Assembly (NCBI GenBank): GCA_019054805.1
Contig: JAHQIY010000001.1
Span: forward strand, 6,462,501-6,526,500
Direction: 5' to 3'
DNA: 64,000 nucleotides
Source: Brachionus manjavacas
Lineage: Eukaryota > Rotifera > Eurotatoria > Ploima > Brachionidae
Positions 2,017 to 64,000 of the stretch are shown one piece after another (the first letter of the stretch is position 1; each line of letters starts with the position of its first letter). The notes beneath the pieces were generated by a model that saw only the letters and a list, made by a program, of their open reading frames with translations, was not told the DNA's origin and did no database searches. The translations under genes were made by a program, and so were the position numbers.

Positions 2017-5000
2017 ATGTCTGACGATGAGGCTTCTTCAGATCGGTCGTCGTCGGTAGGGCGTTATATTTTCGGTGACACGAGCGTTTCGTCGGAGCGC
2101 TCATCGCACAATCAGCCCGACGCCAAGCTGCGCAGTCGCAGCGAGGACTCCTCTCGTTTGTTCCACGACTCGTCTGGCACAACCCGCATCCGCAACAAAG
2201 AGATCGAGCGCGGCGTCCGCATCCGCAACGTGATCAGCACGCAGCAGAACCGGCGCGCCGACGAAAAGCAGGAGCTGCACGAGCTCAACTCGCGCCTAGA
2301 CCAGCTGGTGGACGCAGTCAAGCAGAAAAAGAGCCAGAACGACGAGCTGCAGGAGCGCATCAACCAATTCCGCAACGACCTGCTGTACTCGTCGGGCGAG
2401 GGCCACCGCAGCCGCCTCGACCAAGACCTGCAAGGCGCCAAAGTCGAGCTGAACAGCGTCAGCGAGGTAAACACCATGTCCAAGATACGCGCCTCCAGAT
2501 CCATGTACGAGCTGGACAGACTGCGCGAAAAATATGACGAAGAAGTCAGATGGCAGAGCAGGGACCATGACAAAATTCGCCTGCTCGAGAGCCAGCGCAC
2601 CGAGAGCCTGCACGAGCTCAACTATCTCAAAGAGAATTGTGAGTCGAAAAAGAAATCCCTTCTGGACGACTCGGACCGCAATGAAAAGCTGCGCGAACAG
2701 CTCAGTAATTTGGCAAATGCGCTCGACCACGAACAAGAGAGTCGCATTGATCTAGAGTGCCAAATTCAGACTTTGCTGGAGAAGAAAAAGTTCGAGCAAG
2801 AGCTGCATCGTGTCATGCGCGATGAGCTAGAGCGTTTGTTCGCCAACCAGGGCAGTAATCCGATGGGCTTTTTTACCAGTGAGCTGCGCGACATCAAGGA
2901 AAAGATCAGGGAAGATTTCAAGAAGCTGAACGAGTTCAACAGTGACTCGATGAAGCACGAATACGAGCTGAGGTACTCGAAAATAGTGGAGGAGATCGAG
3001 ATCAAGAAGAAGCAAGCCGAGGAGGCCAGACTCAAGGCCGAGCTTGAGGAGAAGACAAGTTTTGAATCGCTGAGTGTCGAAGTAGAGAGCAACAAGGAAG
3101 AGCTGAAAAATTTGAAGCTTCAAGAGTTCAATTTGAACAAACTGCTTCAAGAGCTGCACGACAAGCTGAATGAATTGAGGAGTAGACATGCGGACACTGC
3201 GGACCAAAAGCAGACCGAAATCGACCAGCTGTACGAACAGATCAACAATTTGAAGGCTGATTTGTCTTCTATGCTAAGTTTTAGCAAGTCTCTTGACTCT
3301 GAAGTGGCTGTGTATGCCAGATTGCTTAACCAGCGCATGAATAGCTTTGTCGCCCAGACCTACACGTTCGAGAACTACGAGAATCTCGTCCTCAAGGACG
3401 AGATCAACGAAAGTCACCGTATTCTCGAACAGAATGAGCTGAAACGCAAGCAACAGGAGTTGGAGGAGAACAACAGACGCCTCAAGGAACTCGAAGAACA
3501 GCGAAGAAGACAAAAAGAACTTGACGAACTGCAAAGGTTAGTTGTTGTTTTTTTTTTAATTAATTAAATTAAATTTTTGATTTTTTTTTGGGGTGAAATT
3601 TTATTTAATTTTAACAAGATTTTTTTCAATTGCCTGAAGGCTGATTGACTTTTAGATAGATTTAATTTTTTTTGTCAAGCCCGTGATTTGTAGACTAATT
3701 CCGGCTATTTTTCTTATCTTTATTTACTTTGAGACTATTAAAATAAAAGATCATTAAACTTTTAAAAATGGGTCAATTGATTTAGAAAGAGAGAAAGAAA
3801 AAATGAGATAAAATAATATTTATTTAAATGCAAGGTTAAATTGAATATCATGTCACAAATAATAAAAAATTGATTTTAAATTTTAATTACTTGTCCAGAC
3901 CATTAGAGAAAAATGTCAATTAGTGCTAAATTTTTTTTAATTAGATAAATTATTTAAAAAAAGTTTTTATGCTTCTTTTCTTTTTCTTTTAGTTTTTTTT
4001 TTTATTAATTAAAGATTAGAGTCAACTGGAAAAAGAAAATGGCCATAAAAAATAATTATCCGTGATATTTAATTTTATTTTTTTTCCTTTGTTGTTCGTC
4101 AGTAATAGTTTGTTTGCTAATAAAATACGCTTTTTCGATTCTAGTTTATTTGTTTGTCATAAATTTTTATAGATTTTTTAATAAGGTTTTTCAGAAATTA
4201 TTATTTTAGTATAAAAATTTATATCATTTTAATTTATTGTTTTGCCGAAGACTTAGTGGTGTTTAGCTTTTTTTTCAGCCATTAAGTTAATTTTTTGACT
4301 GGGGCTTCCAAGCCGATAAAATTTCGAAATTCTACCTAAATAAAGAAAATAAAAATGTAAGTTTATCATTTTATGTTGATATAGTAAATATTCAAGATAT
4401 CAAAATCAAAAATTTAGTATCTATGTCATTCAGCTTGTTTACGATTTGTTTGCTAAACATAAAATTTTCTATCATTATGGAACGATATTTGAGTTGATTA
4501 GATAGTCTATTTGAATTTAAAAAAATATTTTCTAATATAAACTTGGTCTTTGAAAAATTTTGCATCAAATATATTCATGAGTAGCATTTTTTATATTAAC
4601 AAAAAAATAAAACCCTTTAATAAAAAAAATTTAAAATCAATTATAGAAAGAAATTTATTCAATATTAAAACTCATATAAGATTAAAAGATTCACAGATAT
4701 AAGAGAAAAATAAAATTTTTATGCCTGTTTAAAACGATTTAATTAATTAAAAATCTTAATTGCACTTCTTAATAAAAAATAATTTATCACAGAAGTAGAA
4801 AACTACAGGTTAATGAGAAAAAATCAAGCTTTGTTTTTTGGGATTAAATGGCAGGAAAAATATAATAAATTAAGTTTATTTCATGAATTATTTCTTATTT
4901 ATTTTTTAAGATTCAAGAGCGTTTTCTTTTTGTTAATTGTATCCCCGAGCATTAGACTGAAGATAAAGAACTTAAAATGAATCTAGTTTTTTTTTAAATA

Positions 5001-8000
5001 TGCTAAATATTCCAAGCTTTTTAATCTTTTTATGAACCTATATATTTTGAGATGAAATCTGAAGAGCTGAAAAAAAACATTTACTTTTGGTTTTGACTTA
5101 ATTTTTTTTCGAATAATTCGATAGCTTAATTTTGGTAGAAAATTATTTTTCTTTCAAATTGATTCCCTTAAGCACACTCTTCATTAAAAATCATATTTAA
5201 ATTTGAACACTTAAATATTGTTTTATAAAGAATTTTCAGAGTAGAATTTTAATCAAGTTATTAAAAAATAATTTTTGCTTAACTCAAGAATTCATTAGAT
5301 CAAGTTTTCTTTTTTCATTTTTAAAATAAATATCATCCTCAAAAAAGAGCTCTAAATTTGACACTTTGGTCATTTTAAAAAAAGATTTACAATTTTAATT
5401 ATATATTATATATAAGAATAGCGAATACTTTAAAAGTTAATTTAAAATCATTTAAGTTTATTTACTTAAATGGACTCTGATTAAAGAGCTTTTTCGTGAG
5501 AAGAATCATGAAAAAAAACCAAACCAAACTAATATAATAAATTAATTTACATGATTATACTTTAACTTTATGAATTAAATCCTTCTTTGAAAAAAAACTG
5601 AATTGACTTTAAATCATAAAACATCATCTTCTAATATTGAATTTTCTCATTAGTTGGTTTTACTCAGTCTTTGAGAAACAACTACTTCTCCGATTAAAGC
5701 TTTACATGGTAACATGCTCAATCTGTTTATCTGTCCTTTTTAAAAATTCAGTTCATACGAGTTAAAGCTTGGTTGTATAATATAAAATATAAATTTGAAA
5801 GGCTTTTATTTATTTTGAATAAAATATAATAATATTAAAGGAAAAATAAGAAATAAAATTATTTTCATGAATTGGTTTCAATATATACTAAACAAAATTT
5901 TAATTCCAATTTGATGAAAATAATTACGCAAAGCTAAAAAAATTTCCATTTAGGTTTTTTTTAAAGCTTCTTAATTGTGCAATCTTCAATACTAAAAATA
6001 TCAGAAATTTTGTTTAATTACGTTATTATTCTTTTCATAACATTTTACTTAAACACAAAAATTTATTTACGATTATTATCCCTCTCTTTTTTTTACTGAA
6101 AATTTTTTAATTAAAAAAAATTAAGTCAAATCTTGGAATATTTATAAAATTGTACTTAAAAAACGTCGTAATTTGTTTCTTTAGAATTAAATTCAAACTA
6201 ATTTTAAGATATTTTCAATGTTCAAAAAATAAGATGATTTTATGATCTTTTGTAAAATCTTTAAAAAAAACATAGTTAAAAATGGACCATATGGTCAAAA
6301 TTCTTTTCTATTAGAAGGTTTTAAAAAATTGTAAATAATTTCGAAATAATTTAAATTTTGACTTATTTGTTAAATAATTAGATGAAAAATTAAATTTATT
6401 TAATTTTTTTAATTTTTCTAAATATTCATTTATCTTATTTTAAAGATTGTGAATATTAACTTATTCACTTCTTTTATCTCTTTAAGTTTTATCATTAATT
6501 AATATACCATTTAGTAAAAGACAGATGGCTGACGCTTGAGCGAAACTCCAGTAATATTGCTTGCGCGCTTTTACTTTTTATTAAGTGTCAAAACTCAAAA
6601 GAAAAAAAGTTAAATAAAATAAAAATGAAAAAATTTTAAATTAAAAATCAAAATTAAAATAGATAAATTTAAATAAGATTTAAAGGTTATAATTGCTTAA
6701 ATATTTGAGCCTTTTGGAAAAAAAAAAGAAATAGTATGCTAGCAATTATACAATGGAGTCAAATATTCGATTTATATTTATTTGAAGCTTCTTTAAATTC
6801 ATTCAAAGTCTGTTAACCACTGGAATAGAATGACTCAACACATCTCTCACTCAATTAAAAAAGTCGATTCGAGACTGCTATTAGTATAAGTTTATTTAAG
6901 ATCTTGTGATGTAAAATGTTGGTGCTAGCATCATATTTTAGATTCAAAATGGATAAAGTTGCTGAGATTTGGATTAATTGTATTCTTTTGATATTAGTTT
7001 CTAAGAATATGGTCTTAGTGGCTATTTGTAAAATAAATAAATAAGTTTTTAAGAATGAGTTAAGACTTGGCAGAGCATAATCCATTGAGGATAGATCTAA
7101 CTGTTGTATTCTGAATTGCTTGTCGCTCACGATCAGCCACGATCGTTTAAATTATAAAAATAAATGAATTTAATATTAAAATAAGTTAACAATTAATTTT
7201 TCAAAAGGTTTATTTAGCTTTTAACAACAAAAATAAGTCTTTTAAATGATATCTTTGATAAATACTATTTTATGGAGACCCGATGCTCCTAATCCTTTTC
7301 TTTATACTTCTTTTATGCCAAACTTAGTCTCCCGACCTGCTAAAAAGCGGTTCACATGGCACACGTGTCGCTGGATTCTAAAAAGATTAGCCATCAAATT
7401 TTTTTAACTTTTGATTCTTGTGATTTTTTTAAAAAATCTTAAATAGTGAACCTTAAAAAAAAAAAAAACTTTGGCTGTTTTTTGTTTTTTGTTTTTTTTT
7501 ATTTTTTACTTTTACTGCTATATCTTTTGATCACAAAGAATAGAATCGAATTTAAGTTTATGATTTCCACCTCTTTTAAAAATTTTACACTCGTTTATTC
7601 TTCTTCTTCTATCTTCTACTACCAGTGGAGCATAAGGCGTCCACACGTCCCCTCCATTCTACCCTATCCTTGGCGACAATTTCTGCCTGCCCCCATGTGA
7701 GTTTCATCTCTTTCAGATCTCTTTCAACTGTTCTCCTCCAGGCTATCTTTGGTCTTCCAGCATTTCTCTTTCCTTGAGGTGTCCAAAATAGTGCTACTCT
7801 AGGTTTAAATTCTGTCCGTTGCCATTCTAAAAACAAACCGAAACAATTAAAAATTAAAAAAAAATTCAATTTAAAATGTTTTAAGACTAAAACGTGAACG
7901 CGAAGAGGAAGAGAAGCGAAGGCGACAACGAGAAAAGGAGGAAGAGGAGCTCAGAAAGCGAGAATATGAAGACCTGTTGAAAAAACAACGCGAAGAAGAA

Positions 8001-11000
8001 GAAAAACGTCGCAGAGAGCACGAAGAACAACTGCGCAAGAAAGGAGAAGAAGAAAGACTACGGAGGCAGCGCGAAGAAGAGGAGAAACACCGCAGAGAAT
8101 ACGAAGAGCAAGTGCGCAAGAAAGACGAGGAAGAAAGACTACGCACACAGCGCGAAGAAGAAGCAAAGCGTCGCAGAGAGCATGAAGAAGAAATGCGCAG
8201 GAAGGCTGATGAAGACAGACTACGCAGACAGCGAGAAGAAGAGGACAGGCTGAGACGGCAACGCGAGGAAGAGGAAAGAGTGTGGCGAGAGACTGAAGAG
8301 AGGCGCAGGCTGGAAGAAGAGCGCCTGAAGCGTCAGCGCGATGAGGAAGAAAGACTGCGGCATGAGGCCGAAGAAAAGGAGCGTTTGTGGCGTCAACGTC
8401 AAGAAGAAGAAAAACTACGCAGAGAATACGAACTGGAACAGGAAAGACTTCGTTTGCTTGACGAAGAGAAGCGGAGACGCGACGAACAGCTGCGTTTGCA
8501 GCGGGAATACGAAGAGAGGGTTCGTTTGCAGAAGATCGAGGAGGAAGAGAAGAGACGCCGCGAGTATGAGGAGCAAATTCGCATTCATCGCGAATACGAG
8601 GAGCAGATGCGGCACAAGAAGGGCGAAGAGGAGCGTGTGCGCGAACAACTCCGAATTCAACGAGAATACGAGGAACAAGTGCGCAAGCAGCGCGAGCTCG
8701 ACGAGCGTCGCAAACAAGACGAAGAGCGGCTGCGGATGGAGCGCAGCGAACAGCTCAGAATTCAAATGGAGTACGAGGAGAAGATTCGGCGACAAAGAGA
8801 AGCCGAGGAGAAGCTGCAGCGACAAAGAGAAGAAGAAAGACGCAGACAGCGCGACAGAGAAATCGACGACAAACTAAGGCGTCAACTAAGCGAGCAGAAA
8901 TTTCAAAACTACGTGGTCATCAACACCGAGTTTGATCAGGAGCGCACTGAACGCGAGCACAGACTCAAAAAAGAAAGAGAAGAACACGAAAAGTACATAC
9001 TGGAAAAGCTTAGACAAGAGCAAGAGCTTATTGAGGCACAGAAGCGACAAAAGTATCTGAGCGAACAGCGCATTCGTTCGCCGCATCCCATCAACTGTGT
9101 GGACAATGTGCACACGTACACTAAGCGCATTGTAGAGCAAAATCAGCAGTCGCGCGAGACATTCGAAGAGCACAAGTACAAGAGTGATTGTAACGGCGGC
9201 AACTATGAAAAGCAAATAAATATCCAATTGAATCCAGTGCCTAGTCAACGGTCGCAGTCCCACACCAATTTGAACAATAACACAGTGCACAAAAATATTG
9301 TGATCACAAATGTGAACAGGTCACAGTCGCCGCCAAAGAACCGGCTGGCAATTAACGGCTCGTATAGCGAATTGAACAAGGCCGAGTCGAACAACAAGTA
9401 CGCCATTAAGCACAAGGCCAATAGATATGTGTCAGGCGCGATTGGCATTTTGGAAACAGCGCTCAACGGCGAGTACATAATACTCGAGAATTTGAGCTCC
9501 AACAAATCAGTTAACCTAAAAGGTATTTTCTAGATTTTCATAGTGTTTTTCAGACTTGAGCTTAAGACAAAAATTTGAGTCATTTTTTGGTGAAGTCAAA
9601 GATTCGACTTTACTTGATAGATCACTTTAGTTTATTTAAAATTCTTTCCATAATAAAATCCAAAAATACTATGAGAATGGACTTTACTAAAAACTAATTG
9701 AAAAATAGGCTGAATTTTTAATGAAGAAGTCTTGGTTAGAGGATTTGACCTGCACATCATTAAAATATTTTATCTTTTATTTTTTCTAAATAAAATTGAA
9801 AATTTTAGAATTAACGCTTATCTTTGATGTAAGATGTTGGAGGGAGTATCATATTTTAATCTGAGGATAGATAGATCTAATTGTTGTATTCTGAATTGCT
9901 TGTACTACTCTGATATTATTTTCTGAGAATGAATTTAAGCAACGAAAAGAATAGTCTAGGATTGATTCGACTTAGGATATATGTTTTCTAGTCTATTTCG
10001 ATTAAGACCCTATTTTTTGTTAGAAAGTTTCTTAATATTTAGCCTTGCATTGCAGCGTTCTTTAATTTCGACTATCAATATGTGAAACAATAATTGATCA
10101 TGCTCAAAATAAATTCAAAAAAATATTTCAAACAATAAACTTTAGACTTGATAATATTACAACATTCCACAAATGTTTATTAATCATACGATAGAATGTA
10201 ATTGAAAAAGATTTTTCCTTTTACCTTGTTATTTATTTATTTATTTGTTTTCTGTACCGATCTAGGGCTCCTTCAGAATAAATTAAAAAAATCAAAATAA
10301 AAAATAAAATTAAAGTTAATAAAATGAGATAAAAAAAATCAAAATAAAGTAAATAAGCTAAAAAATTGAAAGTGTAGAAGACATAGATTGTTACATGTGG
10401 CACATGTTTACATAGTTCAGGTTTCAGGAAAAAAGTAGGAAATAGTAAGGTAGCAATTACACAATGGAGTTGGGTATTCAATATATCTCGATTCGAAACC
10501 TTCTTTGTATTCCTCCACCAGCCTGACAACTAATGGAATAGAATGACTCAGTCCTGTCCCAACATATCTCTCACTCAACTCAAAAAGCCGATTTGAGACT
10601 GTTAGTATTTTAAGTTTATTAAAAGCTTCATGATGCACGATGTTGGAGGGAGTATCATATTTTAACTTAAGGATAAATCTTACTGCTGTATTCTGAATTG
10701 CTTGTAGTTTTTTGATCTTATTTTCTGAAAATGAATTCAAGCAAGGAAAAGAATAGTCTAAAATTGATCCGACTAAAGATTTATATAAATTTCCTGTTGT
10801 GTTTTGAGTAAGACCCCATTTTATGTTTGACAATATCTTAATAATATTTAGCATTTTATTGCAGCGTTCTTTAATTTTGTCTACTAATATATTAAAATTT
10901 AATTTAGAATCAAATTTTATACCAAGAAACTTGATTTCTTTTTGGCTCATTATTCTGTTTCCATAAATTTTTAAGTTTAGATTATCACTCTCTTTTTTGT

Positions 11001-14000
11001 ACCAAGAGAAGACTACTGAACACGACTTTTAAACTGATATCTTCATTTTCCATTTAATAAGTCATTGTTCTAGTTCGTTGGTGTATTTATTTATCTTATT
11101 TTCTAGGTTCCCCTTTTTGTTAAAAATGAAGAATGAAACTAGATCATCTGCGAAAAGCAGAGAGTGTTCGTTATTAGTTTCGTTATTTGTTTCACCTAGT
11201 TTTGGACTTAAGCTTTTTATTATTTCCTTTTTATTCTAATGAAAGTGTGAAAGTAAAATTTATATTTTATCGGCTTTTATTTTCACAAGTATATTAAAAC
11301 TTAATTTTCTTTTGACTCACTATTTCATTTCAATTAACTTTTAAGCTAAGATTATCACTCTTTTTCTTGTACTAATAAAAGGCCACTCTAAATGATTTTC
11401 CAAATGATATCTTCATTTGACACTTAATAAGTAATGTCAGTTAAATGACCTAGAGTCTATGATGGATCTTGTCCAGTTAGTTAAGTAATTAGATGGATTC
11501 ATTTTGATCAATTTATAAAGTAAACCTTCATGCCATACCCTATCAAAGGCTTTAGAAATATCAAAAAAAAGGCCACAAACTCTTTTTTTCCATTAAATGA
11601 TTCCAAAATTTTTTGAATTAAAAAGGATAGATTATATGACGTTCGCCTGTGTCCGCTAAATTCAGATTGCTGCTGGATAAGAAGTGAATGTTCTTCTAAT
11701 AAAATTTATGATCTTGAGAAGATTATATGATCAAGTAACTTTTCTAGACAGCTTGTTATACTAATTGGTTTATAATTGGAAGGATCTTGCGAATTAGAGG
11801 CTTTTTTTGAATCATAGTAATGTTCCCAATTTATGCTTTAGAAACTCCATCCTTCTAGACGATTAAAAAGTTTTGTAAAAAAAATTTTTACTTGAAGCTA
11901 TGTTATGTGTTGGGTCGGGTACTGATGCTGTTTCACGCTTGAATCTTTTTTAAGTAGATAAAATTTTTAAAATTGATAAATAGAAATATAAAAAAAAAAA
12001 AACAAAGTGATTAACACTTATTTCTTTATCATCTTTTTGACTGATGCTCGCTCTAATTGTTACTGTAGACGTCTCAAGAAAAAGTTTGTTTTACACAATT
12101 GGAAATTTGCTTTTACATTTCGTAGTTTTTCATTTAAAAAAATGAATTATAATTAGTTTTTAGTTTATTAGTTTATATATAATTTCGTTTGTTTTTTTGG
12201 TTTTGGATTCGGACCTCGTGTCCCAATAAAGTTCTCTAAAAACCTTATTGTTTTGATCCGAAACCCCCCGAGTCTAGATTAGGACATGGGAAGTCTTGCT
12301 GGTTAAAATCAAAGTACCTTTTAGTAAAACCGAGAAATTTTACATTAGATTTGTTTGGTCTTTCACGTTTCCGTTTCTCAACAATTTGATTATTGTGTTC
12401 GACAAAATCTAGTCCTGTTGACTAGAAACAAGAAAGTAGAAGCCAAAACAAGTTTTTTCAAGTTTATTTTTCTGATTATTAAATGATAATTATCTCTCGT
12501 TAAATAAAAATATCTATAGAATATTATTTTTATCATATTATAAAAATGATTTATCAACTATTTATTTTATCTTCTAACGAAAAACTATGCTTTTACTAAA
12601 ATAGCTAATTTTTCACAAGTCTTACTAGATGAACTTAATTTTTCGGGCAAGTCGCGATTTCAATGAAATGGTAAATGAATTTGAAAGAGAGAAAAATTAA
12701 AAAATAAAATTCAAAATGCTTTTCATAATACATAATATATTGGTGCTTGTGTAGACAAAAGATGAAAACGATTGAGCGCTTGTGTAAAATGTAATTCTCA
12801 TTTCCATCTTAAGTTAGAAAAAATTTTTAGAAATTTTAATTTTAAAGCGCGAAGCTTTGTCAATTTAAAATCAAATTTATTTTTAAATCTAAAGAAATAA
12901 GCGATTTACAATTTTTTTTTAATCTAATGTGCAACAAAATTGTTGAAAAATGTAACATCTTAAGTCATAACTATTTCCTTTACTTTTTGTAAAGGAAATA
13001 GTTATGAAATTGAAACACTTTTTTATGTTATCATGAATGATAATGTAAAATATCAATGATAACAAAAATATACCTATGATAACTAAAAAAAATTCTATTA
13101 TAAAATCATTAGTTTAATGACAACATATCAGTCGACATTAAAAAAATAAAAACAATTTTTAATGTGAAAAAAATACCTACATTAAGATTTTAACAATAAG
13201 CATTAAAAATAAAAAATCAGAATTAAATAAAAATTAAAATTAAAAAAATTAAAATTACAAAAAAAACTGCTACTGATCATTTATTTATCATCGGTGTTTT
13301 ATCTGTAATTTACTAATCGCTTATTATTTATTTACTTTTTTTTTTTAATATTTATGTACTGATCATTTAAATAAAAAATTGATAGGGTTACTTAGATAAA
13401 TTTTTTAAAATTTTCAAAATCGTCTTTAGTTAAATAAAAACAATTCAAAGCAAGCTTTTCATTAATGTTATTTGAGAATTCGACTCTAGTTCATTATGTT
13501 CTTCAATTAGTTGGTTATGGTTTGACCTGCCTTTTTAATATTTTCTCAGTAATTTTTTTAAGATCATGTCATATTAATGTTTATCGCATATTTTTGCAAA
13601 ATAAATTGATACTTGGCGAAATACTTGGGCATGGTATAACATGGTTAGCTTCACATGCAATGTGTCTTTTCATTTAATTTTTCAAAAATAAATAATTTGC
13701 ATTTACTAGAAGTAATTTGATTGATTCATTTAAACGATATTTAATTAAAAAAATTATAGAAATTTTAAGATTTTGATGAAAAATTCCAAACTAGTATAAA
13801 GCACAAATAAAGTAAAAATTAAATATCAATAAATATTCGAAAAAATATTAGTTAAAATATATTTCGGTGCTATTTGTTTTAATTTCTGTTAAAATTTATT
13901 TTATAATGTTTGAGAAAGCCATAACTTGGTATATTTTTTAAATTCTTTTAACACTGGCTTGAAATTTGTCACTAAAATTTTCAAATTGAAATTTTAAATG

Positions 14001-15713
14001 AATCAATTAAAGATCAATAAAAAAAAATAAGGTTTTTTTATATTATCAAGATTAAACAATTAATGTTTTATTTTAAAACATTATTTTATTCATATTTTTT
14101 TTAGAAACTCTAATTATTAATGTTAAAGTTTTTAGGTTTTAAAAATTTTTAACCATTAATAGTTCAAAATTAGCTGATTATTTTATCTCATATTTACAAG
14201 AAATGGAATAGGTAATTTTTGACCTAATGACAAATGAAAAGGATAAAAAGGACGTTCTTTCAAGCCAGAGCGATATTAATTTTTTTCAGTCGAAATGCCA
14301 AAAAGTACTTAAGTATTTTTATTTGAGTAAATGAATAAAATTTGTAAAATCTGATACATTTAAAAAAAGAAAAACGAAAAGTCATGCCTTTTTTATCGAC
14401 TTAATTTAAAAAAAAATTTTGAATTCATTTCAAAAGAGAAACAAAATTTGCTTTTTTAAAAAATTTTACTTGAACTAGTCAAAGATAATTATTACCGATA
14501 TTATCACCATTAAATAAAGAAAAATACTTACTCTTTTTTTGGAACTTTTTTATAATCTTCAATACAAAAAAAGTCAGAATAATCATTCTTTAACATATTT
14601 TATATATTTTATTTCATTTTAACATTTATTTTATATTTTAGTATAACTTCATATTTTTTAGCGTTTTGAGGGCTTACATTATCTTCAAAACGCTAAAAAA
14701 TATGTCAATCCCAAAAACTTTTATAGGTCCCTAAAAAGAGTCGTTCAAACGATACTGATATTCAAAAAATTATTATAAAAAAAATGACCATGCTCAAAAA
14801 TTGTAATTAAAACAAAGTTTTCAATTTTTTTATCACTATAAAATTCAATTAAGAGAAAAATTTTTATCTTAAAATTAAAAATATAACAATATTTATTTGA
14901 GAAATAAAAATTAAAATTTTTTTTATGACTAATAAATGCTTTCTGACTCATTTAAATGTTAGATTAAAGCTAAGGTTTAAGCTAGTGTCAAAATAACATC
15001 AACGGTTATCTATGGTAACAAAAAAAATTGGTCCATCGAGTATTAAACTATCAAATAAATTGTTAAATAAACTATTGAATAAATTATTAAAACTATTTAA
15101 ATTTAATTTAAAAGGCTGGTACATACACAGGTTTGTGCCCGACCAGAACATCAATGTGACATATAAATTTGCCAATGACACTGTGTTAAATGCGGGCGAG
15201 AAGCTCAAAGTGTTGTCGAATAGACAAAGAAGCTCTAGCATGCATGACGGTCTCAATAGACCGCCAAGACCGATCAAGGCCATTGAAAAAGTGATCACTG
15301 CATATAATATTGACAATTGGGGTACTTATAGCAAGTTTAGTGTGACTAAGCTCATTAATCAGGACGGAGTCGACAAGGCAGTGCTGACACAGTCGCTGCT
15401 TAAGCTTCCGTCGTCGAACAACCTTAACCAGATGGAGGAGATTCCATTGCCAGAGGGCAGCGAGTTGGGCAGGAATTTTCGTACCGCGACCTCCAAGAGC
15501 ACGACTAATTTGAACGAGCTGGCCGGCAATCAGATGGTCAGGGCCCGCTCGGTATCCAAGCCGTGCTGTCCAGAGACAACCACCACCACTACAACCAAGA
15601 CTACGACCACGTCGACCACTCAACAAACAACCACCACTACTACCAAGAATTGCTGTCCCGATCAGTTAGTGACCGCCAAGCCGCCCATTGTACATGTGAC
15701 TCGCCAATTTTAG
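2017..15713 (+). CDS. Cytoplasmic intermediate filament protein with lamin-type rod, Arg/Glu repeat tail and lamin-tail domain
   Basis: Three exons: 2017-3536 (donor GTTAGT), 7886-9522 (donor GTATTT) and 15115-15713. Phases are compatible and give about 1,251 residues. Residues 1-80 form a Ser/Arg head. Residues about 82-440 are the coiled-coil rod; it opens with a coil 1A signature (EKQELHELNSRLDQLVDAV) and ends with a degenerate helix-termination motif (LDSEVAVYARLLNQ). Its length fits the long coil 1B of lamin/protostome type. Residues about 507-900 are Arg/Glu-rich heptad-like repeats. A lamin-tail (LTD) fold spans about 1020-1135; the GEYIILEN strand and GWYIHRF straddle intron 2, and NIDNWGTYSKFSVTKLIN follows. 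The C-terminus is Thr-rich between two CCP motifs and ends RQF. There is no CaaX box and no obvious nuclear lamin C-terminus, so a cytoplasmic filament is inferred. Typical protostome members are about 550-650 residues, so the tail is roughly doubled. The start is the first in-frame ATG, with A at -1 and three bases of AGA context. Confidence 0.9.
6715..7130 (-). mobile_element. LINE 3' fragment (family A) in filament intron 1
   Basis: The minus-strand translation keeps pieces such as FRIQQLDLSSMDYALPSLNS and LKYDASTNILHHKILNKL. At the DNA level it aligns along its length with 10430-10740, the C-terminal region of the longer LINE copy in intron 2. It represents the domain downstream of the reverse transcriptase, with several indels and frame breaks. 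It is dead, 5'-truncated and opposite to the host gene. Confidence 0.75.
7605..7830 (-). mobile_element. LINE C-terminal fragment (family C) in filament intron 1
   Basis: The minus strand encodes an intact end of a non-LTR retrotransposon polyprotein: ALFWTPQGKRNAGRPKIAWR, then VERDLKEMKLTWGQAE, then VEWRGRVDALCS. The W-P-GKR-GRPK-TWRRTVE-DLK...TW...A-DR-WR...ALCS series is characteristic of the extreme C-terminus of many animal endonuclease/reverse transcriptase LINEs. Only about 75 codons are left. It is preserved far better than the other LINE pieces in this intron and sits about 55 bp upstream of exon 2. The same end, more decayed, occurs at about 56340-56548. Confidence 0.8.
7979..8900 (+). 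repeat. Coding tandem repeat (about 81-84 bp, 27-28 residues) in the filament tail
   Basis: Exon 2 of the filament gene begins with successive units of the form REEEEKRRREHEEQLRKKG / EEERLRRQ, 27-28 residues long. At least three clean copies lie between 7979 and 8230, followed by increasingly shuffled REYEEQVR / RLRRQREEE modules to about 8900. The composition is almost wholly Arg, Glu, Gln and Lys with regularly placed Leu, as in trichohyalin and other single alpha-helix or coiled-coil proteins. Copies share codons, which suggests expansion by unequal exchange. Confidence 0.8.
9825..10085 (-). mobile_element. LINE fragment (family A), second copy in intron 2
   Basis: On the plus strand this stretch aligns closely with 10640-10890 (shared landmarks GATGTTGGAGGGAGTATCAT, GTATTCTGAATTGCTTGTA, GCGTTCTTTAATTT). 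It is therefore a second, independently truncated copy of the same LINE C-terminal region in the same minus orientation. All frames are broken. Confidence 0.75.
10225..11900 (-). mobile_element. Non-LTR retrotransposon (LINE family A), 5'-truncated and degenerate
   Basis: Read on the minus strand, fragments of a reverse transcriptase appear in the right order. An NYKPISITSCLEKLL block lies near 11760, an ISKAFDRVWHEGLL block near 11550, a FADDLVSFFIF catalytic-type block near 11150, and then an open stretch at 10417-10950 (FLGIKFDSKLNFN, LYKSLVGSILDYSFPCL, KKLQAIQNTAVRFILKLKYD). These follow the order of Jockey/CR1-like LINEs. The 3' end is a run of AAAT repeats next to 10225. Multiple stops and frameshifts show it is inactive. 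Plus-strand DNA at 17900-18430 is clearly the same family. Confidence 0.85.
12966..13006. repeat. Perfect 18-bp inverted repeat with 5-nt loop
   Basis: The arms CATAACTATTTCCTTTAC and GTAAAGGAAATAGTTATG are exact reverse complements separated by TTTTT, within intron 2 of the filament gene. It may be the relic of an inverted-repeat element; no flanking duplication is apparent. Confidence 0.9.
14650..14704. repeat. Perfect 20-bp inverted repeat with 15-nt loop
   Basis: Arms at 14650-14669 and 14685-14704 are exact reverse complements around a 15-nt loop, in intron 2 of the filament gene about 400 bp before exon 3. It would fold as a stable hairpin in the pre-mRNA. It could be a small transposon relic or a structured RNA; sequence alone does not decide. 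Confidence 0.9.
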
Positions 15714-16959: not shown

Positions 16960-18480
16960 AACTCCATCTTAGGTGGCGATCTAAACGCTAGAACAAAGCA
17001 AATAGGCTGCGTAGCGGAAAATGAAAACGGTATTATGTTGGAAAGGTTACTTTGAAATTCTTAATCTTTTATTAGATTCATCTTCATTAATTGACAAAAT
17101 TACAGACTTTAATGTCTAAAATATTCAAGACATGACTAGTGACCATTTCCCAATCAAAGCATCAATTTCTATGGGCTATCAATTAGAAAATAAATCAACA
17201 GCTAAAAAATTTAACTATAAGAAAGCGAACTGGCAATTATTTAGCGAGATTCTCAAATAGTTATTATCCCTGAAAGTTCCATCACTTGTTCGTAACAAGT
17301 TGTTACGAACATTGTTATTCTGATAAAAGAAGCAGAAAAGTAAGAAGAAACTTCCAAAAAACTCGCTGTCAAAAGCTCAAGCAAAAATATAATCAACTTG
17401 CATTTGAGTAAAAGGCCTCTTTAAAAAAAGTCTTAAATCAAAATTGGTTTGATTTTATCAAGAAATAGGAAAAAACTTACTTACAAGTAGACCTTACAAG
17501 TTTTAAGTGTAATTATTAATTTATCAATTCAATTATTGTATAATTTTAAGAAAATGTATAGGACTGCTATAGCTGAAAATAAAACGCTCAGGCGTTCTCA
17601 GCTTTGTGGATAAGATCCACGCAGTTATCTACTACTACTACTACTACTACTACCTTTATGGAAAAAAAATTAATTAATTTAGAACAAAAAAAGTATCAAA
17701 TTTAATCCCAAATTTATTTTCAAATTACAAGGAATTCAAAACTAATGAAGAAAAGGGAAAATGCTAAAACTCTTATCTTAAATATTTAGTCCAAATTCTG
17801 ATTTAATTGATCCTAAGAAAGATTTCGAAATTTACCTAGAAATTCATTAATAGAAATCACAGAACTTTTTAATTTATCTCTTAGAGAAGGTAAAGTCCCG
17901 AAAGCGTGGAAAACTTCGAACATTATAATGATTCAAAAAAACACCTCTAATTTACAAGATCCTTTAAATTATAGACCAATTAGTAAAACGAATTGCTTAG
18001 GAAAGTTCCTGGAACGAATAGTTTATTCAAGATTAAACAATTTTTTGAACAAAATTCACTCCTTATCCAGGAGCAATCTGGATTTAGGAAACACCAGCGA
18101 ACATCAGATAATCTATTCTTTTTAATTCAAAAAATTTTGGAATAAATTAATAGAAAAAAAAAGAGTTTGTGGCCTTTTTTTGATATTTCTAAAGCCTTCG
18201 ATAGGGTTTGGCATGAGGGTTTACTTTTTAAATTGATTAAAATGAATTCACCTCATTACTTGACTAACTGGATTAGATCCTTTTTAGAAAGGACATTTAA
18301 GGTAAATGTGAATGACCACTTGAGCGACGTATATCAAATAACTGCAGGTGTTCCTCAAAGCTCAGTAGTTAGTCCACTTTTATTTAGTATATATATTAAT
18401 GACATCCCCAAAAGAAACAAAACATAAAACGAATACTCTAGTTACATACTTCATTTATAACAAAAAGGGTGCTTTTATCT
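16960..18480 (+). mobile_element. Non-LTR retrotransposon (LINE family A), degenerate, with nested insertion
   Basis: On the plus strand an endonuclease portion begins near 16972 (GGDLNARTKQIGC, then MTSDHFPIKAS at about 17130, the SDH-type catalytic end of an EEP endonuclease). Reverse transcriptase blocks follow at 17905-18425: GKVPKAWKTSNIIMI, LNYRPISKTNCLGKFLER, FDISKAFDRVWHEGLLFKLI, TAGVPQSSVVSPLLFSIYIN. Frames are broken by stops and indels. A foreign ACT-tailed LINE 3' end (about 17520-17653) interrupts it between the endonuclease and the reverse transcriptase. The copy ends shortly after the YIND block. Confidence 0.85.
17520..17653 (+). mobile_element. 3' end of ACT-tailed LINE (family B), nested in family A copy
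   Basis: GGACTGCTATAGC, a GC-richer hairpin-prone stretch and then a CTA trinucleotide run (17629-17653) match, in order, the 3' terminus of the family B element read on the minus strand at 27060-26960. The 5' boundary is uncertain. Such short, 3'-anchored copies ending in a simple repeat are typical of target-primed LINE insertions. Confidence 0.65.
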
Positions 18481-26957: not shown

Positions 26958-27958
26958 TTAGTAGTAGTAGTAGTAGTAGTGTGAACTGCTGTACAGCGAA
27001 AATGATCGCTATACCAACGCCAATATGGCACCTGGCCCATTAAAAGCCATAGCAGTCTTTGCTTTTATCTATACCAAAAACTTCTCTGTCGATTATTGCC
27101 TTAAAACTATTGAGTGAAACAGCATTTACAGCTCTTGTTGACAAACCATTCCATATATCTACCACCCTATTAGTTAAGAAATTGAAACGTGGAGGACCCT
27201 TCTTGGTCAGTTATCTCACTAGTCTTTTGTCATGTCTTCTTAAATTACCAACTGGTCCTGTTGTTGTTTTTGCATAATTAATTCCATTTATTAAATTTAT
27301 ATTTTCCATACCTTTGACTAGTTTGTACATTTGGATTAAATCACCTCTTTTTCGCCTCTCTTCAAGGGTTGTCAAATTTAAAATCTTTAGCCTTGATTCA
27401 TATGGAATATTTTTTAGACAACTTAGAAGTTTAGTCGCTCTCCGTTGTACCTTTTCGATTATCTGTATATCACTTTTAGCTGTAGACGCTTACAGCATAT
27501 TCAAGATGTGGACGGACTAGTGCTGTATAGAGTAGCCTAAGAGAAGTAACACTTAAGTTTTTGAATGTGTGCTTGATCATACCTAATGCTCTGTTTGCTT
27601 TTGCAGATGCTGCTGAGCATTGTTTTTTCCATTTCAGATCATTTGTTATGTAAACACCTAGATCTTTTTCTTCTGCCGTGTCTTTTAGAGTATGACTTAA
27701 ACCATTTGTTAGGTTGAGCATTTGATATTGAAAGTTGGGATTTTTTTTTCCAATGTGCATTACTATACATTTCTCTAAATTTAGATCGGTAGACCATTTA
27801 TCTGCCCAACTAGCTAGGCTGTTTAAATCATTTTGAAGAGAGAGTGGTAAAGTTATGTATTGACTTAAAGGTCCAATTATTTTCAAATCATCTGCGTAAG
27901 ATAAATTAAATCCTTTAAAACTTCGACCAAGTCGTTTATGTAAATATTGTAAAAACAA
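26958..27958 (-). mobile_element. ACT-tailed LINE (family B), 5'-truncated
   Basis: The minus strand encodes the end of a CR1/L2-like polyprotein. An intact frame at 27476-27958 includes the catalytic-type LSYADDLKIIG, then LNLEKCIVMHIGK, DLGVYITNDLKWKKQCSAAS and LRLLYTALVRPHLEYAVSVY. A frameshift near 27490 follows; downstream pieces are RRATKLL, LEERRKRGDLIQMYK and PRFNFLTNRVVDMWN. The 3' end is a run of ACT repeats (plus-strand GTA at 26960-26980) instead of poly(A). The intact 160 codons suggest a comparatively recent insertion. Confidence 0.85.
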
Positions 27959-28532
27959 ATTTGTGAATTTTTGTCTTAAAAGTCTAAATTTTGTTTTATT
28001 TAAATCCAGTGATAAGGCAACCCTACGATCCTATATGATTTATATATATTATGAAACTATACAAATTTTTGAGTTAAATTGACAATATTGATTTTGTTGA
28101 ATTTTTTTTAATCAAAATCGACGTCTTTAGAATTTTAGGAACAAATTAAAACGTCAAGTCCTTTCCTTTGACTTTTTAATGTGTTTCTTCAACTAGTGCT
28201 AGTAGATCGGTTCATTCTGAAAACCAATTTTTCCTAAGACTAGTTTAAAAGTGGTTTTAATCTAAGTTTATGTCGAAAAAAAACAAAATTTGTTTGGCGT
28301 TTTTATGTATCTTAATGAAATTATTATTTCTCAAAGTAAAATATAAATAGAGTAATTAAAAGAATTTGGTTGAGTCATTTTCACTGTAAAAGACGAAGAT
28401 TCAAAGCAACTATTAAACATTTACACTTGATAAATTTGGCGATGTTTTCAAGAACACTATTTTAATTACTAGACTAAATGTTAGTTTAAAGAATATTAAT
28501 TTTAAAAAAATCAAATAAAAAAATACTTATGT

Positions 28533-31685: not shown

Positions 31686-31863
31686 TTTACATGAATAACG
31701 CACTCGGTTACCATTCTCTCTCACTCATTTTTCTCCTTTCTGCCTTCTCCCTCGTTTTGCACACTTTTTCATTCAAAAAACTCATATGTTTTACTGTATT
31801 AGATAACTCGAACAATGAATTAAAACTACGTAGAAAAATAAAAAAAAAAAAAAAGAGAAAAAA
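31141..31863. promoter_or_regulatory. 5' flank of the AP-4 gene
   Basis: About 0.7 kb with no coding evidence. A TA then CA microsatellite occupies about 31655-31685, followed by a CT-rich stretch (TTCTCTCTCACTC / TTTCTCC) at 31712-31760 that resembles an initiator-type or pyrimidine-rich promoter. An A-run immediately precedes the ATG. Promoter assignment is positional only. Confidence 0.4.
31655..31685. repeat. TA/CA compound microsatellite
   Basis: A run of about 7 TA units runs directly into about 7 CA units, 180 bp upstream of the AP-4 start codon. Confidence 0.95.
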
Positions 31864-32892
31864 ATGTTAGCAGGCAACAACAACACGAATGACGATTTAG
31901 TCATGGATTCTACAGACGACTTGGACGACTTGAACGACGACACCAACGACCTGGAGAACAACTCCAAGTGCAAAGAGAGCGGCGACGGTGGCTGCAAGAA
32001 CTCGCCGGAGCTGAACGAGGACGACAAGCGCAAGAGACGGGCCATCGCCAACAGCAACGAGCGGCGCCGCATGCAGAGCATAAACGCCGGCTTCCAGACC
32101 CTCAAAAACCTGATACCTCACTCGAGCGGCGAAAAGCTGAGCAAGGCGTGCATTCTGCAGCGCTCCGCCGACTACATGCAGTTTCTCAACAAAGAAAAAG
32201 AGAAGCTCAACTGTCGACTGCAAATGGCCGTTAAGCTTATCGAGTCGCACGGTCTTTTGAGCGAGCTGCAGCAGCACGTGGGCGGCCTAGACGAGCACGA
32301 CTCGCACCGCACCGGCGCTGTCAAGTCCGAGTGTCAAAAAATATGCTCCAAACGAAAGTCGCTCAGTTCGATATCGAGCCTGCTGCGCTCGGACGAATCG
32401 CGCCAGCTCACCGACTCGACGAACAGGCCTAGTGTGAAGTGCAGCGAGCCAGAGGACGCCGAGAAGATAAAGACTCGCTCGAGCTCCATAGACCAGTTGA
32501 TCGCGGCCGCAGCGGTCGCCTCGTCGTCGCCGTCTAGCTCGTCGCAGCCGTCCAACTCGGCCTGCGACGAACCGCCCAAGAAAAACCTCAACCTGAACAC
32601 CATTTTCGAGGCGATCAAGCATGTCGAGGGAGGCAGGACTCTGGAGCAGCCGGACGTCAACAAACCGCCCAAGAAAAGAAAGTACACTGGCGAGGAGAGC
32701 GCTCAGGCCAACTCTGCCGCCTCCATGTGCTACATTGACCTCAAGCAATTGAATGCGCTTTGTCTCAATCAAAATCAAATGCAGCCCACTCAACTGGCCA
32801 TACTCACATCCAACGAGAACAAAAATTCCACCGATGAACAATCAAAAAAAAAAAATGATAAAATCATAGGCCTACTTGTGACAAGTTCCTAA
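31864..32892 (+). CDS. TFAP4: bHLH transcription factor AP-4 homologue
   Basis: Intronless frame of 342 residues. An acidic, Asn-rich N-terminus (9-32) precedes a basic helix-loop-helix at 55-115: KRKRRAIANSNERRRMQSIN, then AGFQTLKNLIPHSSGEKLSK, then the second helix ILQRSADYMQFLNKEKEKL. This is nearly identical to vertebrate AP-4, which binds CAGCTG-type E-boxes as a homodimer. A second AP-4 hallmark sits at 241-256 (NLNLNTIFEAIKHVEGG). Between them are a Ser-rich stretch (203-235) and basic patches KKKN / PPKKRK that could serve nuclear import. A short leucine-bearing helix follows the bHLH, but the long second leucine-zipper region of vertebrate AP-4 is not evident. The start is the first ATG, directly after an A-rich leader. 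The last 15 codons follow an A11 tract, so the exact C-terminus is sensitive to indel error. Confidence 0.92.
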   Translation: MLAGNNNTNDDLVMDSTDDLDDLNDDTNDLENNSKCKESGDGGCKNSPELNEDDKRKRRAIANSNERRRMQSINAGFQTLKNLIPHSSGEKLSKACILQRSADYMQFLNKEKEKLNCRLQMAVKLIESHGLLSELQQHVGGLDEHDSHRTGAVKSECQKICSKRKSLSSISSLLRSDESRQLTDSTNRPSVKCSEPEDAEKIKTRSSSIDQLIAAAAVASSSPSSSSQPSNSACDEPPKKNLNLNTIFEAIKHVEGGRTLEQPDVNKPPKKRKYTGEESAQANSAASMCYIDLKQLNALCLNQNQMQPTQLAILTSNENKNSTDEQSKKKNDKIIGLLVTSS

Positions 32893-62768: not shown

Positions 62769-63823
62769 ATGCTTCATCTCAAAGAAAAGCTCAAGCGAGT
62801 ACCAAGTTTCAAATCAAATATTTTATCACAAAATATCGGTTTGTTTGCTAAGGGCCATGTGATAATTAAAATTTAACATTTTTTTTATATAATAAAGAGC
62901 TTGACGAGAATAAAATTCACAATATAGATATTGGGCTTGTATCTGATCTAAATCAATCAAGACATTTGTTTAACCAAGACGACGACGACGTTCCAATGTT
63001 GAATCCAAACTATGAGCCAGACAATGCTGCAGAGACACAGCCTTGTCCGAGCTTGCTCGAGTCCGACCACTGTCACGTGTACAAAGAAACAAATAAGGAC
63101 AAAAACAACCGAGTGGTGTGGCGCAAGTTGATTACTGTCTTGATACTGTGTGTTTTTTTTATGATCTTGGAAATAATTGGTGGTATCATGGCCCAATCGA
63201 TAAGTATCCAGACAGATGCGGCGCACATGGCCGCGGACATAGCTGGATTTTTCTTCAGCATCATGGCCTTGTACGTCTCAAATAAACAGCCTACCAGACG
63301 CATGTCTTACGGCTATCATAGGGGCGAAGTGCTTGGCGCTTTGTTCAGCACGCTGGTCATATGGGTTCTAACCGGTGTTTTAGTCTACCTAGCGGCCATT
63401 AGAGTAATCTACCTAAATTTTGACATTGAACCAAAAATAATGGTAATCACGGCCTCATGTGGTATTGTTTTTAACATTATTATGTATTTTGTTCTGCACA
63501 CAGATATATGCATTAATGGCATCAAACTAAAGCATCATGGTCACAGTCACTCTGGCGATGGTCATGGACACGGTCATGGTCATTCGCACTCTGCCAAAAA
63601 ACAAACAGTTTTAAATGTGCCTATAAATGATAATTTTAGTCAGATTGGAATTTTGGATGGCGATGTGGGCGCTGGCGATGAAGTGCCGAGTTCAGTCGAT
63701 GATTCGAATAACATAAATTTAAGAGCTGCAGCTATTCATGTCATTGGGGATTTTATTCAATCGGTAGGTGTACTGATAGCTGCTGTAATTATCTACATCA
63801 ATCCTGAATACAAATTGGCTGAT
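62769..63823 (+). CDS. Zinc transporter of the SLC30/ZnT (cation diffusion facilitator) family, 5' part
   Basis: The gene is cut by the window end. The supported exon runs from about 62900 to 63823, ending LAD|GTAAGT in phase 0 just before the expected PICT motif. It has no in-frame ATG, so the start is upstream; a candidate first exon 62769-62798 (MLHLKEKLKR, donor GTACCA) splices in frame across a 101-bp intron to 62900. Features: an acidic N-terminal stretch (QDDDDVP), a first span LITVLILCVFFMILEIIGGI, TM2 with DAAHMAAD (first H-x3-D zinc site), and the YGYHRGEVLGAL loop. A cytosolic His-rich loop at 63534-63594 follows, then TM5 with HVIGDFIQSVGVLIAAVII (second H-x3-D site). Both sites have the two-His/two-Asp pattern of the ZnT2/3/4/8 group, which exchanges cytosolic Zn2+ for lumenal H+. 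TM6 and the C-terminal domain are missing. Confidence 0.88.
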
Positions 63824-64000
63824 GTAAGTTTTTAATTAAAATTTTTTCTAATTTAAAACAGAGTTTTATAAAAGTCAAATGGAGCTTTAAGTTGGCTTAA
63901 GTTTATTTTTATCATTTAATTTTATTTTATGAATTCGGTTTCACAAACAGAATATTTTAAAATTTTGGATAATTTAGTTTTTATTAATTGATAATATTAT
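63824..64000 (+). other. Start of the next intron of the zinc transporter
   Basis: Begins with the consensus donor GTAAGT. No acceptor followed by the expected PICT coding sequence is present before the window ends. Confidence 0.75.

Follow-up and report, generated by a model that had tools for sequence, protein, structure and literature searches.

A gene in the 64,000-nucleotide stretch of Brachionus manjavacas DNA that we analyzed (the window) appears to encode a protostome-type cytoplasmic filament protein whose rod and lamin-tail domain are set apart by a stable single alpha-helix, approximately 370 to 440 residues long, that would project from the filament as a stiff arm. We hold this reading with moderate confidence; it was drawn from the sequence, namely from the domain order, the joined reading frame, the salt-bridge pattern, a tract with no heptad core, and an excess of synonymous changes. 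The sequence scores speak for the arm; any bridging of filaments, the tissue, and joint assembly with other subunits go beyond them and are inference.

The gene was modeled as three exons on the plus strand, flanked by GT and AG dinucleotides, which joined into 3,756 nt comprising 1,251 codons and a stop, with 0 internal stops. Exon 1 (2017..3536) begins with an ATG at 2017, is followed by a GT donor at 3537, and encodes the head (residues 1-81), the rod (about 82-440), and the start of a charged tract at about residue 464. Intron 1 (3537..7885; 4,349 bases, G+C 0.231) runs from the GT at 3537 to an AG at 7884-7885 and keeps the phase. Exon 2 (7886..9522) encodes the bulk of the Arg/Glu tract, a linker (about 906-1022), and the opening part of the lamin-tail domain, which is split by intron 2 (9523..15114; 5,592 bases, G+C 0.243). 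Exon 3 (15115..15713) encodes the remainder of that domain to about residue 1155 and a C-terminal tail with CCP motifs, and ends with the stop. The resulting order was the rod (82-440), the Arg/Glu tract (467-905), the linker, and the lamin-tail domain (about 1018-1155). The three exons had a G+C content of 0.517, 0.495, and 0.491, in contrast to the two introns. The coordinates, the frame, and the length of about 1,251 residues given in the original prediction were confirmed by the GT/AG-bounded exons, the open frame, and the G+C contrast, and the three-exon model holds up at the sequence level, with splicing itself being predicted. The junction 9522/15115 was supported by the lamin-tail homology that was restored once exons 2 and 3 were joined. 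At the junction 3536/7886, the end of exon 1 already lies within the charged tract, a block from residue 464 on, and the frame continues. Searches of exon 1 against prokaryote genome contigs and viral contigs yielded 35 and 9 pattern matches, respectively, with 0 confirmed, and a PDB sequence search yielded no match for exon 2 at E 0.001 and only two chance-like matches for exon 3 (E 1.5 and 2.7).

The rod (2260..3336, plus strand; residues about 82-440) has end motifs that are divergent yet can still be recognized. The Pfam Filament model (PF00038) matched residues 82-438 when exon 1 was searched (42.4 bits; cut-off, 40) and gave the gene 44.3 bits in a genome search; at E 0.001 it did not appear among the matches to the full 1251-residue protein. 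In the 114-Mb genome, 13 Filament matches were detected, 11 of them over the cut-off and two of these in one gene, resulting in ten rod genes. The window rod was the weakest of the ten, compared with 62.6-204.9 bits for the other nine, one of which was split into two match entries. Nine of the 14 strongly conserved columns of the initiation motif were kept, versus 12-14 in eight paralogues (L026 left out), and 7 of the 16 in the termination motif, versus 9-16. As aligned, the window rod comprised 365 residues, seven more than those of L019 and L021, and coil 1b was of lamin length, with no large gap against the lamin paralogue and thus no 42-residue deletion. The weakest Pfam score together with the degenerate end motifs indicates, at the sequence level, that the gene is a divergent member of the filament family, and the earlier description of the rod as canonical was too strong. 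Degenerate rod ends point to a co-assembling subunit over a self-sufficient one, and the window protein is more likely to be of the co-assembling type. A tree of the rods had one well-supported inner branch out of seven and joined the window row to the long-branched L026, the rod of which is truncated; because of the weak support and the long-branch partner, no placement of the window gene was drawn from it. L027, with a lamin-tail domain only, stood outside the rod alignment, and the sub-cut-off matches L016 and L017 (the same as L028 and L029) were left out of it and entered only the scan for charged helices.

The Pfam lamin-tail model (LTD) matched residues 1025-1105 of the joined protein with 33.8 bits (E 4.7e-8), 0.5 below its cut-off of 34.3, and neither exon 2 nor exon 3 alone matched any Pfam family at E 0.1. 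A lamin-tail profile built from five paralogues scored 57.5 bits on the joined piece, compared with 25.0 bits on exon 3 and 13.4 bits on exon 2; on the window protein it scored 53.2 bits with an envelope of 1018-1155, and the final 30 residues of exon 2 matched the start of the profile. A genome search with PF00932 missed this split domain. The lamin-tail domain is therefore present as had been predicted, but it is about 14 residues longer than that of paralogue L019 and does not deserve the word canonical. A canonical rod and tail domain was rejected on the Pfam score, the degenerate motifs, and these extra residues. The protein ends in VTRQF, with no CaaX. Two CCP motifs, at 1203-1205 and 1232-1234, flank a Thr-rich stretch (residues 1203-1234, about 15564-15659) and contain four of the eight cysteines of the protein.

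A rod and a lamin-tail domain were found in one chain in five of the ten rod genes: the window gene, the lamin (L020), L019, L021, and L025. The spacers between the two domains were 68, 51, 69, and 40 residues in the lamin, L019, L021, and L025, respectively, and 584 residues in the window gene, the longest by far. Four further genes (L018, L022, L023, and L024) contained no lamin-tail domain in the open frame, where further exons could hide one: paralogues were read as single open frames from the first Met, which lies 70 residues into the frame in L024, and exons may be missed, as L026 had more. Within the four sister genes with both domains, a long charged spacer was not seen.

By charge, the Arg/Glu tract extended from about residue 464 to 898, ending before proline 906. 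Residues 467-905 were 66% charged, with 130 Glu, 106 Arg, 38 Lys, and 43 Gln among 439 residues. In this segment 184 i,i+4 pairs carried opposite charges versus 15 with like charges, and the i,i+3 pairs were much less one-sided (135 opposite versus 76 like). The net salt-bridge score was z = 12.0 above 1000 shuffles of the same residues. The chain was free of proline from 283 to 905, and the run 285-905 contained neither proline nor glycine except Gly 560 and Gly 753. The original prediction of an unusually long charged helical tract between the rod and the lamin tail is borne out by the salt-bridge score and by the spacer of 584 residues versus 40-69.

A helix score was written after the description of Waggawagga-CLI in a passage of PMC5812594, with our own weights; the 0.25 cut-off was published for the Waggawagga matrices and is a guide only for this score. 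One positive control (Myo10) and 10 paralogue open frames as negatives were scored alongside. A score of at least 0.25 was reached by 89% of the 49-residue windows in 480-845 and by 75% in 470-905; the 11% in 480-845 that fell under this value included dips in places after residue 728. The peak score of 0.50 equaled that of the myosin-10 helix, and 47% of the windows in 480-845 reached 0.36, the lowest window value of myosin-10. Among the 11 proteins scored, only the window protein reached 0.25 (0 windows in the 10 paralogue open frames). No score of at least 0.25 was obtained in twelve 9.9-kb loci (six frames, every third residue), and in a six-frame scan of the window only the exon 2 frame reached it. 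The tract scores like a single alpha-helix of the myosin-10 type. Because only 47% of the windows reached 0.36 and some dipped below 0.25 after residue 728, the helix of the arm may be interrupted. With 0.15 nm per residue, 366-439 residues correspond to 55-66 nm, and the rod and the lamin-tail domain are probably separated by a stiff arm of about 60 nm.

A tandem repeat was detected within the charged helix by Tandem Repeats Finder (7985..8242, plus strand; an 81-base, 27-codon unit, 3.2 copies, 79% matches). When codons were compared at the 27-codon offset, dS was 1.29 and dN 0.14 over 59 codon pairs, which are overlapping comparisons from a single gene. As the differences were mostly synonymous, the protein sequence of the repeat looks constrained, in what is a small sample within one gene.

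One alternative is that the tract extends the rod into a single, very long dimeric one, either as a coiled coil of two strands or as a bundle of paired charged helices. Filament rods dimerize, so that both arms would start at one place and could be near enough to pair, and the stretch without proline (283-905) would accommodate such a structure. The hydrophobic signal at a period of 3.4 was also raised in 480-845 (1.94, compared with 1.86 in the L019 rod); modest as it is, this signal suggests that the helix surface is not entirely featureless. At a period of 3.5, however, the signal was 1.37 in 467-905 and 1.56 in 480-845, versus 2.49, 3.06, and 2.53 in three rods, and shuffled tracts gave a mean of about 1.0 with an s.d. 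of 0.33-0.38 (1.02, s.d. 0.38, for 480-845). In the best register, the aliphatic fraction at a/d positions was 0.26 in 480-845 versus 0.55-0.58 in the window, lamin, and L019 rods, and 4% of 28-residue windows had a fraction of at least 0.5 versus 74-84% in the same rods. As a passage of PMC8203680 notes, misidentification of single helices as coiled coils is a known problem. We regard the long dimeric rod as unlikely and the tract as a helix with no heptad core. It is more doubtful still that the protein is a lamin-side one, acting at the nuclear lamina and using the arm to span the distance to chromatin or membrane. Its long rod of lamin type and its lamin-tail domain would fit this, and the missing CaaX is not diagnostic against a lamin, since published rotifer lamins also have none according to a part of PMC10125929. 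Against it, the genome contains a clear separate lamin (L020, 632 aa), the C-terminus of which, AVQKFLGLWK, was identical in 10 of 10 positions to those of the Brachionus plicatilis, B. manjavacas, and B. paranguensis lamins in Table 2 of that paper. The five nearest rows to the window gene by path in the rod tree exclude the lamin, on a tree with a long lamin branch and weak support. The GKKRKM of the lamin paralogue had no counterpart by eye in the window protein, in which the tract is rich in Arg/Lys runs.

The tract could instead be a neutral low-complexity repeat expansion with no structural role. Tandem repeats grow easily, and no second copy of the tract was found in the genome or in the scanned filament loci, by a genome search that may miss low-complexity matches; yet the low dN relative to dS and a charge order far from that of shuffled sequences make this explanation improbable. 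The idea that the architecture is an artifact of annotation, with exon 2 taken from another gene or the tract removed by a splice into exon 2, is given even less weight. The introns are long, splicing is predicted, alternative splicing to sites inside exon 2 may occur, and in human genes single-helix domains act mainly as building blocks, with some transcripts of a gene lacking them (PMC5812594). Exon 1 nevertheless ends within the same charged tract, exon 2 carries the start of the lamin-tail domain, and splicing of exon 1 to exon 3 would produce a frameshift with a stop at codon 524; these findings argue against exon 2 being skipped or belonging to a different gene. Just as improbable is a trichohyalin-like covalent crosslinker, hardened into lorica or trophi by a transglutaminase or after prior citrullination. 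Trichohyalin is a protein of vertebrate hair and epithelia, the Arg/Glu-rich helical repeats of which are thought to act beside intermediate filaments; the composition of the tract and its 27-residue repeat resemble it, and Gln and Lys, at 43 and 38 of 439 residues, are present. The label "trichohyalin-like" fits the composition only, in a comparison that contained no trichohyalin sequence. No S100/EF-hand match was obtained on the whole protein (Pfam at E 0.001, only LTD) or exon by exon at E 0.1, where four Pfam families were listed for exon 1 with EF-hand not among them. The TPH domain (PF13868) was absent from exon 2 at E 0.1. The kinship with trichohyalin that had been proposed is not borne out, as the charge composition is common to single alpha-helices such as that of myosin-10, and membership of the trichohyalin family was rejected on the missing S100 and TPH matches. 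Transglut_N (PF00868), Transglut_C (PF00927), and PAD (PF03068) had 0 matches in the genome; they were also silent in 14 of 14 controls, so that zero matches are no proof of absence. Transglut_core (PF01841), positive in 10 of 14 controls, had seven genome matches, six of which were read (L039-L044); at none of these six loci did the two longest open frames contain GQC, the motif of animal transglutaminases. Trichohyalin-style crosslinking thus finds no backing so far. In the open-licence PMC literature, nothing was found for trichohyalin, intermediate filament, and lamin tail together or for rotifer, lorica, and keratin, and the only match for trichohyalin and rotifer was a tardigrade sequence study. 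The CCP cysteines could offer an alternative bonding route, which is speculation.

The protein was compared with known systems. It resembles the cytoplasmic filament proteins of protostomes (lophotrochozoans), in which a lamin-type rod is followed by a lamin-tail (Ig) domain, and for which three genes of the same genome plus the lamin provide short-spacer comparators; it differs from them in its long spacer, its degenerate rod ends, its longer tail domain, and its CCP-Thr-CCP C-terminus. With single alpha-helix domains such as that of myosin-10 it shares a richness in Glu, Arg, and Lys, an i,i+4 pattern of opposite charges, the absence of a heptad core, and an equal peak score. Its tract, unlike that domain, sits between a rod and a lamin tail, has more Arg than Lys, and is several times longer than the 62-residue stretch in the consulted part of PMC5812594. 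Trichohyalin differs from the window protein, which is fused to a filament rod and has no S100 or TPH match, in a genome where PAD and a standard transglutaminase were not found by searches with silent controls. Nestin and neurofilament M/H are filament subunits with very long tails, like the window protein, and squid NF-220 is another long-tailed filament protein; the neurofilament tails end the protein. In contrast to the neurofilaments, the window tract is predicted to be stiff, and a lamin-tail domain comes after it. A portion of PMC11121635 states that nestin is unable to form homopolymers, describes neurofilament tails as a bottle brush, and treats filament tails as usually non-helical and of low complexity. 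EXC-2/IFC-2 of Caenorhabditis elegans, also a cytoplasmic filament protein, likewise bears a long extension of an unusual kind, which in its case is the N-terminal domain (PMC7557474, in part), as also seen for nematode proteins in an excerpt of PMC4448529. No filament protein with a single-helix tail was among the matches listed for the open-licence PMC literature, as far as the matched text goes, and the order of rod, charged helix, and lamin tail appears to be a new variant among filament proteins.

If the single-helix reading is correct, the degenerate-ended rod would co-assemble with sister filament subunits instead of self-assembling, and the charged helix would project from the filament as a stiff arm of 55-66 nm. 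At its tip the arm would carry the linker, the lamin-tail domain, and the C-terminus with its cysteines, and there it could bridge neighboring filaments or anchor them to a membrane or to the dense lamina inside the cells of the rotifer skin. Charge may also make arms adhere laterally to one another. Single alpha-helices are described as rigid connectors and springs in a part of PMC5812594, where ordered Arg-rich model repeats are reported to aggregate and natural animal helices to prefer Arg to Lys and possibly to be stable. Rotifer skin contains an electron-dense intracytoplasmic lamina (a passage of PMC13403294), which is a plausible candidate site for the protein. A further and tentative suggestion, which we consider possible though rather doubtful, is a rotifer class of filament proteins with a single alpha-helix, about 60 nm long, that serves as a fixed-length strut, a genetically encoded ruler that spaces lamin-tail domains to build the skeleton of the dense intracellular lamina. 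With a rigid helix for an arm and a folded domain at its end, a filament subunit would be well suited to serve as a cross-bridge of defined length, and would offer a molecular candidate for the building of the intracellular skeleton layer of rotifers. The correction of the trichohyalin-like label means that the physics of the single helix probably matters, rather than kinship with a hair protein.

Other loci were observed in the course of the genome searches. The filament locus L026 (contig C1, about 5.263-5.266 Mb, about 1.2 Mb from the window) has exons at 4255-5305, 6000-6272, and from 6323, with GT/AG junctions; the second exon completes the rod, and after a 50-base intron calmodulin-like EF-hands follow in frame. 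Over residues 1-570, the joined product scored 77.9 bits with Filament and 100 bits with EF-hand_7 (two stretches), about four EF-hands were visible by eye, and no lamin-tail domain was reported by Pfam. L026 is apparently a fusion of a filament rod with EF-hands, which would be unusual, and these EF-hands, besides the charged arm of the window gene, suggest that unusual tails of more than one kind have arisen in rotifer filament genes. L027 (contig C13, about 0.719 Mb; 4816-5628, minus strand) contained a 265-residue frame with 38.7 bits for LTD and no Filament match. At L044, one of the Transglut_core loci, one open frame also carried KAKELEEK/KAKELAEK units in regular repetition.

Within the window, open frames at 7609-7950 (minus), 10417-11028 (minus), 17817-18125 (plus), and 27476-28030 (minus) resemble pieces of non-LTR retrotransposons, one of them located within intron 2 and one across the boundary between intron 1 and exon 2. 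Two more open frames on the plus strand, at 31834-32892 and 62870-63835, were taken by us to resemble an AP-4-type bHLH factor and a ZnT-type zinc transporter, respectively.
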